From the NCBI GenBank assembly GCA_947623955.1, contig CANQIP010000016.1, positions 1 to 33,591 of the forward strand: a stretch of 33,591 nucleotides of DNA, in the 5' to 3' direction. The translations under genes and the position numbers were made by a program. Positions 2,170-17,400 of this stretch are shown here, piece by piece. This DNA is from an uncultured Clostridia bacterium. GTDB lineage: Bacteria; Bacillota; Clostridia; UBA1381. Under the pieces are notes generated by a model. That model worked only from the letters and a program-made list of their open reading frames with translations, searched no databases and was not told where the DNA came from. Each line of letters opens with the position of its first letter. Position 1 is the stretch's first letter.

Positions 2170-4269
2170 TTACCCGGACGCGTCGATTATCTGTGCGCCT
2201 CTGTACGGATTATTCTTGTCGTTCCAGACAAGCAGTCTCAATTCGTGTGTAACGCCGTCTTTTACGTAGTCTAAGCATATATCTCCGCTCTCGGTCATTA
2301 CCTTTCTCACCTTGACTACCCTTATGAGTGTGCCGTTTTCGTACTCGGCTGCATACACGTTTATATCCGCGCCCGCCCCGTCCGCGTTGACTGTTATCGG
2401 AACGGTTATAACGCCGTCCGTATACAACGCGTCTCCGATGCTGATTGCCTCCGGTATCGGTGTGGGTGTTGGCGTTGGTGTGGGCGTAGGCGTTGGTGTC
2501 GGTGTTGGCGTAGGGGTCGGAGTTGGCGTGGGGGTTGGCGTGGGGGTCGGGGTAGGCGTTGGCGTTGGTGTGGGTGTAGGTGTAGGTGTAGGTGTCGGCG
2601 TAGGCGTAGGTGTGGGTGTGGGTGTGGGCGTAGCATCCGGCATCACAATGCCGTCGGGGTACAGCGAAAAGCCTTCCATATGGTTCTCCATCGCCTGCCG
2701 CAAAAGCCTGTACCGATTGGGACACAGAATTTGTATCGCCCTCCGGCGGTCACGGTTGCCGTAACACGTAAAATAGAAACGGCAAAATTCGGCGAAGTCC
2801 TCCGCCAGATATTTGGAATCGGTCGACGCGCCGTAGCTTGACATGGAGAACATATCATTTTTCCGCGCAGCCTCCCACAATCCGCTTTGGTACGACCAAA
2901 AGTACCCGCCGCTGCCGAGACGTGCGTCAAAGCTGTGACCCATTTCATGTATTATGCTGTCAAGTATAGACTGCTCGCTGTTCGGGTGGTTCAGTTCGAT
3001 ATACAGATGCACTCCCGCGCTGTAATAGGAGTTGAGCGATGAGTATTCCGACATCAGCGTTTTAATATCCTTTCGGTAAATGTAAGGAATATGTACAACA
3101 ATTTCTTCAAAGTATTTCGCGTCGGTTTCGGCGACATTGTTACCCGCCTCGACCCACATTTCCAAATTCTGCGTCGTTTGACCGTCCGCCTCCGTGATAA
3201 TCAAGTCGTAGACAGTAAATTCCTTTGTACTGCTTTTGCTGCTCCACGAATACCAACTCGGGTGTCCGTACTCGGTTCTTGCATCTCCGCGCTTTGCCGT
3301 AACGCCGTCCGTTCCCGGTAAATCATACGGAACGTGGTAACTCGACTGCAAGTGCTTTGTCACATATCCGCCGCTTACGGAAAGGTACGACGAAAGCGCG
3401 GACATAAGCTGAGCCTCCGTGGGTTTCTTTCCGTTCCTGTAAAGCTCGTCCAGTCTTCCGCGTGGAGACTGATTTTCTGCCATAGCCGTTCCGTTGCGCT
3501 CGAACGCGTCGCCCGCAACGCTCTCGTAGACGCGCACAATTCGCTCTCTCTGCGCGTCGGTTAGATTTGCCCATGCCTGCGTTTTTGACAGCTTGTAAAG
3601 CGGACTTTCGTCCGGCAGCTCCTCAAACGTAATCTTCGCCCTATGTTCCCTATCGGTCGCTATGACCTTACCGTCCTCCGAAATGCCCATATATAGGTCG
3701 TTTTCAAGGTTTTTAAGATAATACGACGGCTTGTCGTCGGCATAGTCCTCGCTCTTTTCTCTGAACCAGTGCTGGGTGTTGTCGTTCATACCGTAAAATT
3801 CCGTTTCCGTGTTCACGTCCTTGTTGCCGAATTTATATTGCGCGGACGGCAGCTGTTCGCCCAAATCCGCCGTTGCTATTCTTCGCGTAAAGTCGTTCCA
3901 CACCTCCACGTTTTGGTATTCCCACACGTAATCTTCCTCATAGTCGTCCCATACCTCGACATACTGCCGTTCAATACGCGGCTGATTGGAACTGCGCACC
4001 TCAAACGCGTAGCTGCCGTCAGCCATGTCACGCGGCAGGAATTGGTCACTCATATCGTTTACGGATATTTCGTCGGCAATTATTTTATCGTCCCGGACGC
4101 GCAGCTTATGACCTTCGGCATAAACGTGCTGATACATTCCCGCAAAGCCTTTGTAGACTGCGTCCGTTTCATCGTCCGCTTTCGCATACTCAAAGGGCGC
4201 AGCGGAGAAAATTGCGAAAACAGCGCACATGACGAGGCAGTAAAACTTATATCTGTTCCGTGTATTCAT
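2170..4269 (-). CDS. Secreted anthrax-lethal-factor-like (M34/ATLF) zinc metallopeptidase with Thr-Pro linker
   Basis: A 699-residue secreted protein. Residues 1-31 form a signal peptide. Residues about 32-430 are an unrecognised N-terminal region containing Tyr- and Trp-rich segments. The catalytic module has HEMGH at 441-445 (zinc ligands His441 and His445, base Glu442), then SSYG at 477-480 and YLAEDFAEF at 487-495. Glu490 is 49 residues after His441, the same spacing as His686 to Glu735 in anthrax lethal factor, and the SYG tyrosine is also present. After the peptidase come 29 Thr-Pro dipeptides and a C-terminal domain of about 90 residues, probably a beta-sandwich, ending near [11 protein letters not shown]. 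The ATG at 4269 is chosen over an in-frame GTG at 4290 because GGGAGG lies just upstream of the ATG. It has its own promoter. The target is unknown; a role as a toxin or in surface processing is inference. Confidence 0.85.
2458..2631 (-). repeat. 29 tandem Thr-Pro codon pairs (degenerate hexamer repeat)
   Basis: This stretch encodes 29 uninterrupted Thr-Pro dipeptides linking the peptidase module to the C-terminal domain. At DNA level it is a run of six-base units whose third codon positions vary among all four bases for both Thr and Pro. It is therefore not a perfect microsatellite. The peptide is expected to be an extended, possibly O-glycosylated spacer. The plus strand of the same segment reads as Gly-Val repeats, which is only a shadow. 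Confidence 0.95.
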
Positions 4270-4320
4270 AATTTTCCCGCCTCCCTTCACGCTCCGAATT
4301 GCTTATGTGTATATATAATC

Positions 4321-8095: not shown

Positions 8096-8124
8096 TTGAT
8101 TTTTCCGCTGAAGTGATGTATAAT
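8096..8124 (+). promoter_or_regulatory. Promoter of the four-paralogue surface protein array
   Basis: TTGATT (8096-8101), a 17-base spacer and a perfect TATAAT (8119-8124) lie about 20 bases before the first gene. It has the same -35, spacing and -10 as the divergent hydrogenase promoter. No comparable promoter was found between the four genes, so they are probably one transcript. Confidence 0.8.
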
Positions 8125-8144: not shown

Positions 8145-8909
8145 ATGAAGAGATTTACTTTAGGCTTTATAATAGGCGGCATTATATGCTCCGCGCTGAC
8201 GGGGTTTGCGGTCGAGTACGCGGTAACGGCGAACCCGTTCCCTATCAAGGTTGACGGTGCTGCTAAGTCAATCGAGGGATATAACATAAATGACAGTACC
8301 TATTTCAAACTACGTGACGTAGCCGACGCGGTGGGCGGATTTACGGTAGGTTTTGTGAATAATACAATCACAATCAGCACATCGCAAGCCGAGCCGTCGG
8401 AGCAATCGCCGGAGCCCGCAAATACCGACGGAGCTATCACAATTTATGAGGGACAGCCGAGAGATAACCGCCTCGCGAAAGAGGGCGACACTTTCGTCAA
8501 AGCGGACGGTACGCAGATAGTGTTAAAGAAAGATGAAGTAACGGGCGTGTTGGGGTATAGACAAGGCGTTGCGCCGGATGTAGGTATAATGGATGAGATA
8601 GGACAAGGTGATGCTAAATTCACTGTTCCTTTGGAAGCAAATGGTAAACTGGTTACAAATAAATACGGTAATGACTCAACAGGTGCTTGGACTGCTGCAT
8701 CATTCTACAATGTAAATCCTCTGACTGGTGAGGGACATTGGGATAATGAATGGTCTGTAATTTCTCAAAAAACACATCCTCAAGCTCCTGGTACAACATT
8801 TGGTGAGATTTCAGAAGATAAGAACTTTATATGGGATGACGATGGTTGGGTACCATTAGCCTGTGATAATGGACACAAAATATTAGAGTATGTCAATACA
8901 CATCAGTAA
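8145..8909 (+). CDS. Secreted stalk-domain protein, array member A (C-terminal type 1)
   Basis: 254 residues. Residues 1-25 are a signal peptide or membrane anchor (FTLGFIIGG then SALTGFA). Residues about 28-79 resemble a single short copper-amine-oxidase-N/stalk repeat (ANPFPIKVDG, YNINDSTYFKLRDVADAVGGF), common in Firmicute surface proteins. Residues about 97-146 hold the array's shared module: ITIYEG, KEGDTFVKADGT, then GVLGYRQGVAPD. The last 105 or so residues are a distinct domain with VNPLTGEGHW, EW, SEDKNFIWDDD and a closing EYVNTHQ. This 3' third is visibly AT-richer than the 5' part. GGGGG in the leader is the ribosome site. It shares its C-terminus with member C and its N-terminus with B and D. 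The biochemical function is unknown. Confidence 0.88.
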   Translation: MKRFTLGFIIGGIICSALTGFAVEYAVTANPFPIKVDGAAKSIEGYNINDSTYFKLRDVADAVGGFTVGFVNNTITISTSQAEPSEQSPEPANTDGAITIYEGQPRDNRLAKEGDTFVKADGTQIVLKKDEVTGVLGYRQGVAPDVGIMDEIGQGDAKFTVPLEANGKLVTNKYGNDSTGAWTAASFYNVNPLTGEGHWDNEWSVISQKTHPQAPGTTFGEISEDKNFIWDDDGWVPLACDNGHKILEYVNTHQ

Positions 8910-8927
8910 TAGATAGGGGGATTTTCC

Positions 8928-9698
8928 ATGAAAAAGTTCACTTTAGGTTTTATTATAGGCGGTGTTATATGCTCCGCGCTGACGGGGTTTGCGGTCGAGT
9001 ATGCCGTTACGGCGAACCCGTTTCCGATCAGGGTTGACGGCGTTGCAAAATCAATCGAAGGCTACAACATCAACGACAGCACATACTTTAAACTGCGCGA
9101 CGTAGCCGACGCGGTGGGCGGATTTACGGTAGGTTTTGTGAATAATACAATCACAATCAGCACACAAGCCGAGCTGTCTGAACAGCCGTCCGAGTCCGCA
9201 AGCAACGACGCGCCTATCACAATCCACGAGGGCGAGGTATCGCAGAGAAGATTTGCAAGAGAGGGCGATACCGTTATAAAGGCTGACGGTACGGCGGTAG
9301 TGCTGAAAAAAGGGGTGCATGGCATTTTAGGTGAAGGTCAGGGAGTTGCGCCGGATCTCGGCGTTACGGTAACAGGTGTTGGTAATACCACAGTTACAAT
9401 GACAAATGTAACAGGTTTAGTATTCTCAGGTGATGTTGGAGACCAAGTTGATTCAACGGGTATGACAGTTAATAATCAGTCATATTATGTTAATTTAGTA
9501 ACGGGTGAGGGTCATTGGGCAGCTGAATGGAGGGTTATAACTTCTGCACCAACAGAACCCGGAGAATTTGCAGACCAATTATCAGAAGATAAAAACTGGG
9601 TTTGGTCTGGAACTTTACAATCTTGGATGGAAGTATCAGTACAGGCTATGCCACAAGAAGCATTAAACAGAGTATTGGCAGCTAATGGCTTAAATTAA
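8928..9698 (+). CDS. Secreted stalk-domain protein, array member B (C-terminal type 2)
   Basis: 256 residues, starting 18 bases after member A with GGGGG just upstream. The signal peptide and stalk-like domain (residues 1-79) differ from A at only four positions. The shared module reads ITIHEG, REGDTVIKADGT, GILGEGQGVAPD. The C-terminal type 2 domain (about 145-256) begins LGVTVTGVGNTTVTMTNVT and contains SYYVNLVTGEGHW, SEDKNWVW and a C-terminal Asn-Gly-Leu-Asn. It keeps the VNxxTGEGHWxxEW and SEDKN motifs of type 1, so the two types are distant homologues. The segment 8964-9241 is base-for-base identical to member D. The role is unknown; probably exposed at or released from the cell surface. 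Confidence 0.87.
   Translation: MKKFTLGFIIGGVICSALTGFAVEYAVTANPFPIRVDGVAKSIEGYNINDSTYFKLRDVADAVGGFTVGFVNNTITISTQAELSEQPSESASNDAPITIHEGEVSQRRFAREGDTVIKADGTAVVLKKGVHGILGEGQGVAPDLGVTVTGVGNTTVTMTNVTGLVFSGDVGDQVDSTGMTVNNQSYYVNLVTGEGHWAAEWRVITSAPTEPGEFADQLSEDKNWVWSGTLQSWMEVSVQAMPQEALNRVLAANGLN
8964..9241 (+). repeat. 278-bp exact direct repeat, copy 1 (in member B)
   Basis: Comparing line by line, 8964-9241 and 10940-11217 are identical over 278 bases. They cover the signal peptide, the stalk-like domain and the start of the shared module of members B and D. Divergence begins immediately on both sides. The identity implies recent duplication or ongoing gene conversion. Confidence 0.93.
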
Positions 9699-9731
9699 AA
9701 TTTTGTTATATATAAAAACGAGGTAACGCAT

Positions 9732-10880
9732 ATGAGAACGAAAAAAATTACGGCGGCGATAGCAGCGGCGGCGCTTGTGACTGGAACGATTGCAAGTGCG
9801 GCGACGTTTCCCGATGTGAAGTCCGGGGATTGGTATTACGACACGGTTACGGCGATGACGAATAAAGGGTTATTCGCGGGAATTGAAGAAAACGGCACGG
9901 TGTATTTTAAGCCGGAGAGCACGATGACGCACGCGGAGTTTATTGCGGTTGTGGACAGAATTTTAAATCTCGACACAAGCATAAAGGGTGAAACGTGGTG
10001 GTATGGAGTGTATCACGCCGCGGTTGACACAAATTTAATAACAAGCGGCGAGATGAGCGAAACCGACATGGACAAGGACATAACGCGTCAGGAAATGGCA
10101 ATGATAGCGGTACGCGCCATTGAAAAGCGGGGCGAAACGCTCTCAAAGCAGTATGCCGATAACGTTCAGGCATCGATCCCCGACAACCAAAAAATCGACA
10201 GCCGCTACCGCGATTTCGTTCTGACGGCATATGAAAACGGTATACTCTGCGGCGTGGACGACATCGGCACGTTTGATCCTGACGGCACACTTACGCGCGC
10301 TGCTGCGGCGACGGTACTGAACCGCATAACCGAACCGTCAACAAGAGAGAACCGCGATTTCTCGCAGCCGCCCGATACGCTGCACAACTACAACCCCATA
10401 ACGATTTACGAGGGTCAGCCCCGAACGGAGGAAAATATGCGTCTGGCGCGTGAGGGCGATATATACGTCAAGGCGGACGGCACGCGGGTAGTATTGAAAA
10501 CAGATGAATTGACGGGCGTGTTGGGTTACGGTCAAGGCGTTGCGCCGGACATTGGTTTGACAGAGATGGTCGGACAGGGTAAAGCAGCAACCCCTCATAC
10601 ATTGGTTGCCAATGATAGAATGGTTACAAATAAATACGGTAATGACTCAACAGGCTCTTGGACTGCCGCATCATTCTACAATGTAAATCCTCTGACCGGT
10701 GAGGGTCATTGGGATAAAGAATGGTCTGTTATAGCTATAAAAACGCGTCCTAAAGCCCGCGGTACAGTATTGGGTGAAATTTCAGAAGATAAGAACTTTA
10801 TATGGGATGATGACGTTTGGGTTTGTTTAGCCTCAAACAATGGACATAGCCTATTAGAGTATGTCAATACACATCAGTAA
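9732..10880 (+). CDS. S-layer-homology-anchored protein, array member C (C-terminal type 1)
   Basis: 382 residues. Residues 1-24 are a signal peptide (AAIAAAALVTGTIASA). Three SLH motifs follow at about 26-67 (FPDVKSGDWYYD), 85-130 (WWYGVYHAAVDTNLI) and 145-195 (DFVLTAYENGILCG, FDPDGTLTRAAAATVLNRI). They would bind secondary wall polymers. From about residue 217 it carries the array's shared module (ITIYEGQPR, REGDIYVKADGT, GVLGYGQGVAPD) and a type 1 C-terminal domain nearly identical to that of member A, ending in the same EYVNTHQ. The SLH block thus replaces the stalk-like N-terminus of its neighbours, an N-terminal swap. GAGG lies 8 bases before the ATG. This member indicates that the shared C-terminal domains work at the cell wall. 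Confidence 0.9.
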   Translation: MRTKKITAAIAAAALVTGTIASAATFPDVKSGDWYYDTVTAMTNKGLFAGIEENGTVYFKPESTMTHAEFIAVVDRILNLDTSIKGETWWYGVYHAAVDTNLITSGEMSETDMDKDITRQEMAMIAVRAIEKRGETLSKQYADNVQASIPDNQKIDSRYRDFVLTAYENGILCGVDDIGTFDPDGTLTRAAAATVLNRITEPSTRENRDFSQPPDTLHNYNPITIYEGQPRTEENMRLAREGDIYVKADGTRVVLKTDELTGVLGYGQGVAPDIGLTEMVGQGKAATPHTLVANDRMVTNKYGNDSTGSWTAASFYNVNPLTGEGHWDKEWSVIAIKTRPKARGTVLGEISEDKNFIWDDDVWVCLASNNGHSLLEYVNTHQ

Positions 10881-10903
10881 TAGATAGGAGGAAGGAATTT
10901 TCC

Positions 10904-11674
10904 ATGAAAAGATTTACATTAGGTTTTATTATAGGCGGGGTTATATGCTCCGCGCTGACGGGGTTTGCGGTCGAGTATGCCGTTACGGCGAACCCGTTTC
11001 CGATCAGGGTTGACGGCGTTGCAAAATCAATCGAAGGCTACAACATCAACGACAGCACATACTTTAAACTGCGCGACGTAGCCGACGCGGTGGGCGGATT
11101 TACGGTAGGTTTTGTGAATAATACAATCACAATCAGCACACAAGCCGAGCTGTCTGAACAGCCGTCCGAGTCCGCAAGCAACGACGCGCCTATCACAATC
11201 CACGAGGGCGAGGTATCACAGAGAAGATTTGCAAGAGAAGGCGACATCGTTATAAAAGCAGACGGCACGGAGGTAGTGCTGAAAAAGGGACCGCACGGGG
11301 TACTTGGCGAAGGTCAGGGCGTTGCGCCCGACCTCGGCGTTACGGTAACAGGTGTTGGTAATACCAAAGTTACAATGACAAATGTGACAAAGTCTGTTTT
11401 TTCAGGTGATGTAGGCGCTCAGGTTGATTCAGTAGGAGAACGTATCAATAATCAATCCTATTATGTAAATCAGATAACAGGAGAGGGACATTGGGGCTCA
11501 GAATGGATGGCAATGAAGTCCATACCGACAACAGAGGGTACAGTTAAATATCAGTTGTCAGAAGATAAAAATTGGTATTGGGATGATGTTATGCACTCTT
11601 GGACGGAGGTTTGTGTTCAAAATATAGGGCCAAAGACTTTAGCAAAAATAAATGAAGTTAATGGCTTAAACTAA
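10904..11674 (+). CDS. Secreted stalk-domain protein, array member D (C-terminal type 2)
   Basis: 256 residues, 23 bases after member C with AGGAGG upstream. Its first 115 residues are almost the same as member B. The shared module reads REGDIVIKADGT, GVLGEGQGVAPD. The type 2 C-terminal domain has diverged more (LGVTVTGVGNTKV, SYYVNQITGEGHW, SEDKNWYWDD), yet ends with the same Asn-Gly-Leu-Asn and is followed by the same AT-rich bases as B. This pattern (conserved front, diverging back) suggests selection for variation in the exposed C-terminal domain. It is followed by the bidirectional terminator shared with smpB. Function unknown. Confidence 0.87.
   Translation: MKRFTLGFIIGGVICSALTGFAVEYAVTANPFPIRVDGVAKSIEGYNINDSTYFKLRDVADAVGGFTVGFVNNTITISTQAELSEQPSESASNDAPITIHEGEVSQRRFAREGDIVIKADGTEVVLKKGPHGVLGEGQGVAPDLGVTVTGVGNTKVTMTNVTKSVFSGDVGAQVDSVGERINNQSYYVNQITGEGHWGSEWMAMKSIPTTEGTVKYQLSEDKNWYWDDVMHSWTEVCVQNIGPKTLAKINEVNGLN
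10940..11217 (+). repeat. 278-bp exact direct repeat, copy 2 (in member D)
   Basis: Partner of 8964-9241. The two copies lie 1,976 bases apart in the same orientation, so homologous recombination between them would delete or amplify one C-D unit. Confidence 0.93.
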
Positions 11675-11704
11675 AATTTTGTTGTGTATGAGTGTAAAAT
11701 AAAA

Positions 11705-11729
11705 CGCGGCACAATGCCGCGCAATTTTT
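11705..11729. terminator. Bidirectional terminator between the array and smpB
   Basis: The stem CGCGGCA / TGCCGCG (11705-11711 and 11715-11721) has a three-base loop. It is followed by a T-run on the plus strand (CAATTTTT) and, reading the minus strand, by TTTTATTTTA. It can end transcription from both the surface protein array and smpB. Confidence 0.8.
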
Positions 11730-17371: not shown

Positions 17372-17400
17372 TTGCTTTTTTCGCGGCATTATGGTAAAAT
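17372..17400 (+). promoter_or_regulatory. Promoter of the RnfC-like gene
   Basis: TTGCTT (17372-17377), a 17-base spacer and TAAAAT (17395-17400) lie 32 bases before the ATG. Confidence 0.65.

Follow-up and report, generated by a model that had tools for sequence, protein, structure and literature searches.

Apparent exchange of conserved C-terminal tails between sites in a probably exported protein family of Clostridia

Background

The closest described system to the one presented here is that of the rhs genes. They have a GC-rich core, an AT-rich tip and a motif at the border between the two, and tips are shared among positions, according to the available part of PMC2935791. Exchange of C-terminal tips is best known from toxins; we present a similar pattern in what appears to be a surface binding domain of gut commensals. 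This work concerns four adjacent genes at positions 8,145 to 11,674 of a 33,591-nucleotide stretch from an uncultured Clostridia bacterium (assembly GCA_947623955.1, contig CANQIP010000016.1, forward strand). We call the whole stretch the window and the four genes, numbered 1 to 4, the window array.

All four proteins end in one domain of about 150-155 residues. The tail, as we use the word, runs from the GQGVAPD codons to the stop codon and makes up the AT-rich two thirds of the domain; the conserved first third is the module. Two unrelated front ends bear the domain, and we call them chassis: a short front that we label CAO-like, or a pair of SLH stretches. The main comparison is between the genome of the window (G000) and three others, G007, G008 and G011. 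On balance we lean toward the view that these genes form a lineage-specific family of exported, probably surface-attached proteins whose recognition tails are kept as a repertoire and re-paired with chassis by recombination. The strongest feature in the sequences is that tails appear to have been exchanged between sites, with the GQGVAPD codons as the boundary.

Tails as conserved units at different sites

Tails were grouped at 88% or more nucleotide identity by single linkage and loci were grouped by their flanks. The 56 genes from the four genomes fall into 22 tail groups. They comprise 13, 19, 14 and 10 genes out of 15, 20, 14 and 11 domain matches in G000, G007, G008 and G011; partial genes and loci absent from the collection scan were omitted. 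Tails are 90-99% identical between species, and tail groups do not coincide with sites. The window array lies next to an opposite-strand gene which we take to be smpB. At this site G000 has four genes with tail groups T8, T4, T6 and T15, G007 has two with T5 and T1, and G008 has one with T4, whose tail is 99.1% identical to that of gene 2. A site on contig C14 of G000 holds T1 while the matching site in G007, with flank identities of 0.93 and 0.92, holds T4. Group T11 is borne by a CAO chassis in one genome and by an SLH chassis in a different one.

The same picture emerges when tails are paired between genomes as reciprocal best matches of at least 90% nucleotide identity and their 600-nucleotide flanks are compared, a flank matching if its identity is over 0.7. 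This was done for 55 of the 56 genes; L070_9051 was left out because it reads GVAPG. Of the 23 such pairs, 14 have no matching flank, 5 have a match on one side, 2 have matches on both sides and 2 lack a flank. Gene 2 and L085, one of the 14 pairs, are at the same site within an array, and the other 13 pairs are at sites not found to be the same. When we start instead from the seven between-genome gene pairs with both flanks matching, the tail group differs in five.

Relocated tails have few synonymous differences per synonymous site (pS), 0.07 for T8 and 0.11 and 0.19 for T1. Nonsynonymous differences per site (pN) between same-group tails of different species are 0.004-0.020 (9 pairs), and we read tail orthologs as being under purifying selection. 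Between paralogous tails within types dN/dS is 0.23-0.41, against 0.05-0.17 for fronts, with synonymous sites near saturation. Composition marks the same units. The GC content of third codon positions (GC3) is 0.20-0.39 in tails and 0.49-0.67 in fronts across the four genomes and is lower in the tail in every gene measured; six ordinary window genes have 0.61-0.73, and such a contrast is rare in outgroup genes. The sequence comparison thus shows a tail haplotype that is kept together and conserved between species while it stands at different chromosomal sites on different chassis. The initial annotation of this DNA called the proteins mosaic; it mentioned neither the apparent exchange of tails nor a boundary at the GQGVAPD codons.

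Fronts and the edges of the units

The fronts behave very differently from the tails. Of 41 CAO genes, the 40 whose front is complete were compared in 581 between-species pairs. Mean identity is 0.846 when both site and tail differ (489 pairs), 0.847 with the same tail at a different site (47 pairs), 0.843 with a different tail at the same site (41 pairs) and 0.846 when site and tail agree (4 pairs), and the largest value for any pair is 0.899. The clearest of the pairs that agree in both is L025_7657 of G000 and L080_5995 of G008. Its pS is 0.06 in the tail, against 0.55 in the front and 0.58 in the module, and its promoter is identical up to about 3 nucleotides before the start codon. Five ordinary genes beside the array have pS of 0.09-0.22 between the same genomes with no consistent contrast between 5' and 3' parts. 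(An earlier flank estimate had used automatically picked open reading frames (ORFs) filtered by pN; it was redone with these five real genes at one site.) From the start codon to GVAPD, then, synonymous divergence is far above that of the neighbours and independent of site, tail and, nearly, species.

Linkage disequilibrium between front codons decays within about 10 codons. The association index rbarD among front codons is about 0.0045, above chance in the pooled genes, and about 0.17 for type B tails. Genes 2 and 4 have fronts that are 98.3% identical in nucleotides and tails that are 68.7% identical, which we take as the mark of a recent exchange or duplication.

The edges of the units can be placed by comparing pairs. 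Among 10 same-tail pairs with tails at least 94% identical, the left edge of the tail falls 12-27 nucleotides before the end of GVAPD in six. The start edge lies between -2 and +5 in four of eight same-site pairs, and the right edge lies at most 9 nucleotides from the stop codon in four of seven same-site pairs with different tails.

Recombination as the proposed cause

We believe that general homologous recombination between copies would be the most economical cause of these patterns. The conserved front would be reshuffled by short-tract conversion, and occasional longer events would carry a whole tail, ending near the stop codon. Within-genome conversion among 15 copies was simulated under 25 settings with 6 runs each. 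Mean tracts of 30-60 nucleotides with 2-3 hits per position come close to the observed identities; 60 nucleotides and 3 hits give 0.843 for same-site pairs, 0.840 for different-site pairs, 0.866 within genomes and 0.897 for the largest between-species value. If this is true, the family is a natural case for measuring short-tract gene conversion in bacteria against known sites.

Each chassis, whether a CAO-like front with a hydrophobic N-terminus or two SLH stretches, would present one domain of about 150 residues that probably recognises a ligand. Candidate ligands are glycans, mucus, plant fibre and partner proteins. The benefit would be that distinct binding specificities are kept as a set and can be combined anew with promoters and anchors.

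Several results weigh against this account. Fronts within a genome (0.858; 178 pairs with different sites and tails) are barely more alike than fronts of different genomes (0.846), so classical concerted evolution is weak. Long runs of identity in fronts are not in excess (43 against 42.2 +- 8.1 in permutations), so single conversion tracts or mosaic blocks are not seen directly. The front association index is above chance in G000, G007 and the pool, though not in G008. The edges also scatter: the four remaining left edges are at +3, +47, -159 and -186 (the last with almost no support), the start edge is 37-84 nucleotides upstream in the other four same-site pairs, and the right edge is 52-75 nucleotides before the stop codon in the other three same-site pairs with different tails. 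The stop codon is followed by only a short stretch of homology, so the transfer of whole tails by ordinary recombination should be rare. The simulation, finally, is a fit to modern sequences and no test.

Alternative explanations

A stronger version of exchange, possible in our opinion but doubtful, is a dedicated cassette system that serves a surface recognition domain which is not toxic and whose fold has yet to be solved. The start codon, GQGVAPD codons and stop codon would delimit its units, which would be re-paired among a set of chromosomal sites. Each site would keep its own promoter and terminator, and the lineage would in this way maintain a combinatorial repertoire of anchor, promoter and specificity. 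No recombinase shared by the neighbourhoods of 18 loci was seen in ORF listings, with no systematic recombinase search made. A gene resembling large serine recombinases by eye lies directly downstream of a family gene in two genomes (L070 4682-6202 and L071 6612-8138).

Assembly error is the rival that matters most, even though we consider it unlikely. Where stretches are conserved, short-read metagenome assembly might have linked the front, tail or flank of one copy to those of another. The four main genomes are in 20-56 contigs each and three are labelled metagenome-assembled genomes; contigs C45 and C41 of G000 break within a family gene, the contig of a further relative, G010, stops 80 nucleotides past smpB, and the left tail edge falls in the best conserved stretch. 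However, among 376 pairs of copies from one genome just 4 have an exact repeat of at least 55 nucleotides that spans GVAPD, and none has one across the start codon or the stop codon (the assembler settings are not known). A false join at GVAPD would move the tail and its downstream flank together, yet relocated tails separate from that flank near the stop codon. Reading frames are also intact, and the same pattern recurs in several assemblies.

It is still less probable that tails never moved. On that argument the ancestral arrays had many copies and each species kept a different subset at each site. The array lengths of four, two and one at the smpB site fit such differential loss, but it presupposes that copies of one tail had long existed at many sites, and the pS of relocated tails is low (0.07; 0.11 and 0.19). 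It also leaves unexplained why fronts lose their orthology where site and tail agree.

Hypermutation of the front, to which we give no better chance than differential loss, would have synonymous sites from the start codon to GVAPD mutate much faster under selection at the protein level. Orthologs with the same site and tail do differ at about half of their front synonymous sites while promoter and tail hardly differ, and the lack of long identity runs agrees as well. Decay of linkage disequilibrium with distance is predicted by recombination and not by hypermutation, the nearly identical fronts of genes 2 and 4 over different tails look like a conversion event, and hypermutation would not account for tails changing site. 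A diversity-generating retroelement is an unlikely source, with no RVT_1 match in G000, G008 and G011 (85-88% complete) and one in G007.

Antigenic or phage-escape variation is improbable to the same degree. Tails would diversify fast under immune or phage pressure, and the strong divergence of paralogous tails (dN/dS 0.23-0.41, against 0.05-0.17 in fronts) is what one would expect from it; but the low pN of orthologous tails (0.004-0.020 between species) points to old and conserved variants. Silent pseudogene cassettes were not noticed, though no systematic search was made. The initial annotation had listed immune or phage interaction among the possible roles, and we found no evidence for it: the searches of viral, phage and plasmid sequences and of PADLOC gave no match, and tails are conserved between species. 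We likewise reject a mobile-element reading, having found no relative of the domain in viral contigs, in phages (queried with the gene 1 domain) or in plasmids (queried with the gene 2 domain).

Last and very improbable is a polymorphic toxin or contact-inhibition family with toxic tips as in Rhs or CdiA, for although the GC-rich front, AT-rich tail and conserved border motif match the available part of the rhs description (PMC2935791), the tails align as homologous variants of one domain, the array proteins match no toxin family, and the window array genes follow each other directly with no immunity-like ORF between them, since no ORF fits gaps of 18-33 nucleotides. Old, distinct and conserved variants on common anchors would, we infer, fit ligand recognition better than antigenic escape or toxins.

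The window array

The features of the array, with window coordinates, are these.

8096..8124, + strand: sigma-70-like promoter before the array, TTGATT-17-TATAAT
8145..8909, + strand: gene 1, CAO-like chassis, type A domain, tail group T8, 254 residues
8436..8579, + strand: gene 1 domain, conserved first third, ITIYEG to QGVAPD
8580..8909, + strand: gene 1 AT-rich tail, stop included, GC3 0.23 against 0.56 upstream of the tail
8928..9698, + strand: gene 2, CAO-like chassis, type B domain, tail group T4, 256 residues
9216..9356, + strand: gene 2 domain, conserved first third
9357..9698, + strand: gene 2 AT-rich tail, GC3 0.24
9732..10880, + strand: gene 3, SLH chassis, type A domain, tail group T6, 382 residues
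9804..9944, + strand: gene 3 best SLH stretch, residues 25-71, one of two in Pfam
10398..10550, + strand: gene 3 domain, conserved first third
10551..10880, + strand: gene 3 AT-rich tail, GC3 0.33
10904..11674, + strand: gene 4, CAO-like chassis, type B domain, tail group T15, 256 residues
11192..11332, + strand: gene 4 domain, conserved first third
11333..11674, + strand: gene 4 AT-rich tail, GC3 0.31
11704..11722, either strand: terminator-like hairpin between the array and smpB, detected on both strands

The description of the array as an isolated plus-strand block in the left half of the window was correct: the likely genes that flank it are on the minus strand and the next likely plus-strand gene to the right starts at 17391 (from the ORF listing, with real-gene status being our reading). 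The genes are separated by 18, 33 and 23 nucleotides. A single transcript, as the initial annotation had it, is likely because of these short gaps, the one sigma-70-like site and the one terminator-like hairpin. Export was also claimed, and all four proteins have a hydrophobic N-terminus as judged by eye. The motifs ITIxEG, EGDxxxKADGT, QGVAPD, TGEGHWxxEW and SEDKNxxW are present in all four as described. Where gene 3 has its SLH front, genes 1, 2 and 4 have a common front some 97 residues long, and the domain types follow each other as A-B-A(SLH)-B.

The promoter element, with up to 3 mismatches, is found at seven places in G000. Six precede family genes and one precedes a chassis gene with another C-terminus; a similar element stands ahead of the first genes in the other three genomes. 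On contig C10 of G000 (L164, 2500-22000) a plus-strand gene at 9911-10453 has the same promoter and chassis with a different C-terminus, and it sits on the opposite strand within a prophage tail block (Prophage_tail, SPP1_Dit, Mtd_N and amidase matches). Downstream of two family loci (L018 9946-11505 and L050 7136-8788) is a gene starting with MANRIQL(K/R)RG that resembles, by eye, the Mtd_N-type phage protein of L164.

The other neighbour of the array, also on the opposite strand, encodes 568 residues and is presumably ferredoxin-like and hydrogenase-like. Further off, at 2170-4290 on the minus strand, the window has a secreted-looking protein of 706 residues with a long Thr-Pro repeat linker. 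Between array and smpB G008 has a 425-residue ORF (L159 5941-7215), methyltransferase-like with a STAS-like end by eye; G007 has a perhaps broken relative (L158 5392-6513), and the window holds just 53 nucleotides there.

The domain, its chassis and its distribution

The initial annotation treated the module and a C-terminal domain as separate parts, a division we abandon. AlphaFold2 predicts the gene 2 domain, from 38 sequences, with a predicted local distance difference test score (pLDDT) of 95.6 and a predicted template modelling score (pTM) of 0.88. This high-confidence prediction spans module and C-terminal part, so the two are predicted to fold as one domain with GQGVAPD inside it. A full-length prediction for gene 1 scores mostly above 93 in the domain and 26-60 in the front. 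The 38 domains, taken from the window and from the collection scan, can be aligned with shared motifs over the whole length between ITIxEG and the C-terminus, tails included. Two types can be told apart: genes 1 and 3 have type A, genes 2 and 4 type B.

The domain had been called unassignable to a named family, and indeed it has no significant match in Pfam, NCBIfam, PHROGs or PADLOC, and none was obtained from the other sequence and structure libraries searched. The WW domain (PF00397) was rejected: its 13.3 and 12.8 bits are below the curated cut-off of 26.9, and WW-like similarity is seen in 5 of 14 members with a best E of 0.034. The string GQGVAPD was not found in the literature searched, and among the matches listed no paper deals with the family or describes exchange of this kind for surface proteins of the SLH or CAO-like sort; most subscription papers are outside that search. 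If our reading is true, an unnamed extracellular domain with an accurate-looking predicted fold is a likely gut recognition module.

The predicted SLH anchors of one member are there: gene 3 has two stretches (Pfam E 2.7e-15) and is like the SLH-domain surface proteins (PF00395) in this, as are four outgroup domain proteins. Genes 1, 2 and 4 are unlike them, with no SLH match in Pfam and the short CAO-like front instead. The label CAO-like refers to a resemblance to Cu_amine_oxidN1, the copper amine oxidase N-terminal domain (PF07833). The chassis is weakly similar (47% over 44 residues, E 5e-8) to a protein of G000 that matches PF07833 with E 4.4e-7, but the chassis of genes 1, 2 and 4 has no match to PF07833 itself up to E 1. 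Action at the cell surface, as first suggested, would fit the SLH relatives.

G000 has 15 domain matches (E 2.6e-109 to 1.2e-26), beyond chance; two more, with E of 0.29 and 1.15, were left uncounted. Two of the matches, at the end of contig C45 and at the start of C41, seem to be halves of a single gene, which brings the count to about 14 family genes, 10 in arrays of at least two and 4 single. Tandem arrays and alternating C-terminal types are borne out, arrays being a frequent arrangement and not an obligatory one. Among 61 genomes, G000 and relatives, the domain is in six: G000 (15 matches), G007 (20), G008 (14), G011 (11), G009 (1) and G053 (4). It is in 5 of 16 genomes within the genus and, by a profile search of the class, in 11 of 291 with G000 included. 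The domain has thus expanded to 11-20 matches each in four related genomes. The named collection has 45 loci; rabbit-gut (Lapin) metagenome genomes contribute many of these, and Oscillospiraceae contribute others.

In relatives from other Clostridia the domain sits at the C-terminus of SLH proteins. All four outgroup domain proteins tested with Pfam carry SLH, and so the pairing of SLH with the domain probably came first and the CAO-like chassis later. G001 and G013 are relatives without the domain in which a closely similar chassis is joined to other C-termini. Such C-termini, of about 100 residues on a chassis 72-86% identical, are seen in L168 (G001), L169 (G013) and L139 (contig C10 of G000). 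G010 has no domain match and its chassis matches are weak, at best 51%. Its smpB is 99% identical and its flank 93.7% identical, and its array site is unreadable because the contig ends where it does. Arrays of this kind may break short-read assemblies, as the C45/C41 split and the end of the G010 contig suggest.

Comparison with known systems

Concerted evolution of prokaryotic paralogs, as treated in the accessible part of PMC6053082, shares with our case gene conversion between paralogs. It differs in that paralogs of the same species are there more alike than orthologs, whereas in our case fronts differ to an equal degree in all comparisons and tails retain their identity.

Rhs is nearer. 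From what the available part of PMC2935791 describes, both have a GC-rich conserved front, an AT-rich C-terminal part and a conserved border motif, and in both tails are shared between chromosomal positions, for which homologous recombination was proposed. Set against the same source, there are three differences: Rhs tips are non-homologous whereas the tails here share one domain; displaced Rhs tips are found in downstream arrays of dissociated tips, of which we noticed none here; and clade I Rhs cores cluster by position whereas our fronts do not. Homologous tails and the lack of YD repeats (no such Pfam match in the four array proteins) depart from two defining features of Rhs, so the family is not Rhs. 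By analogy, the system would nevertheless seem to work much as Rhs tip exchange does, and the resemblance is close.

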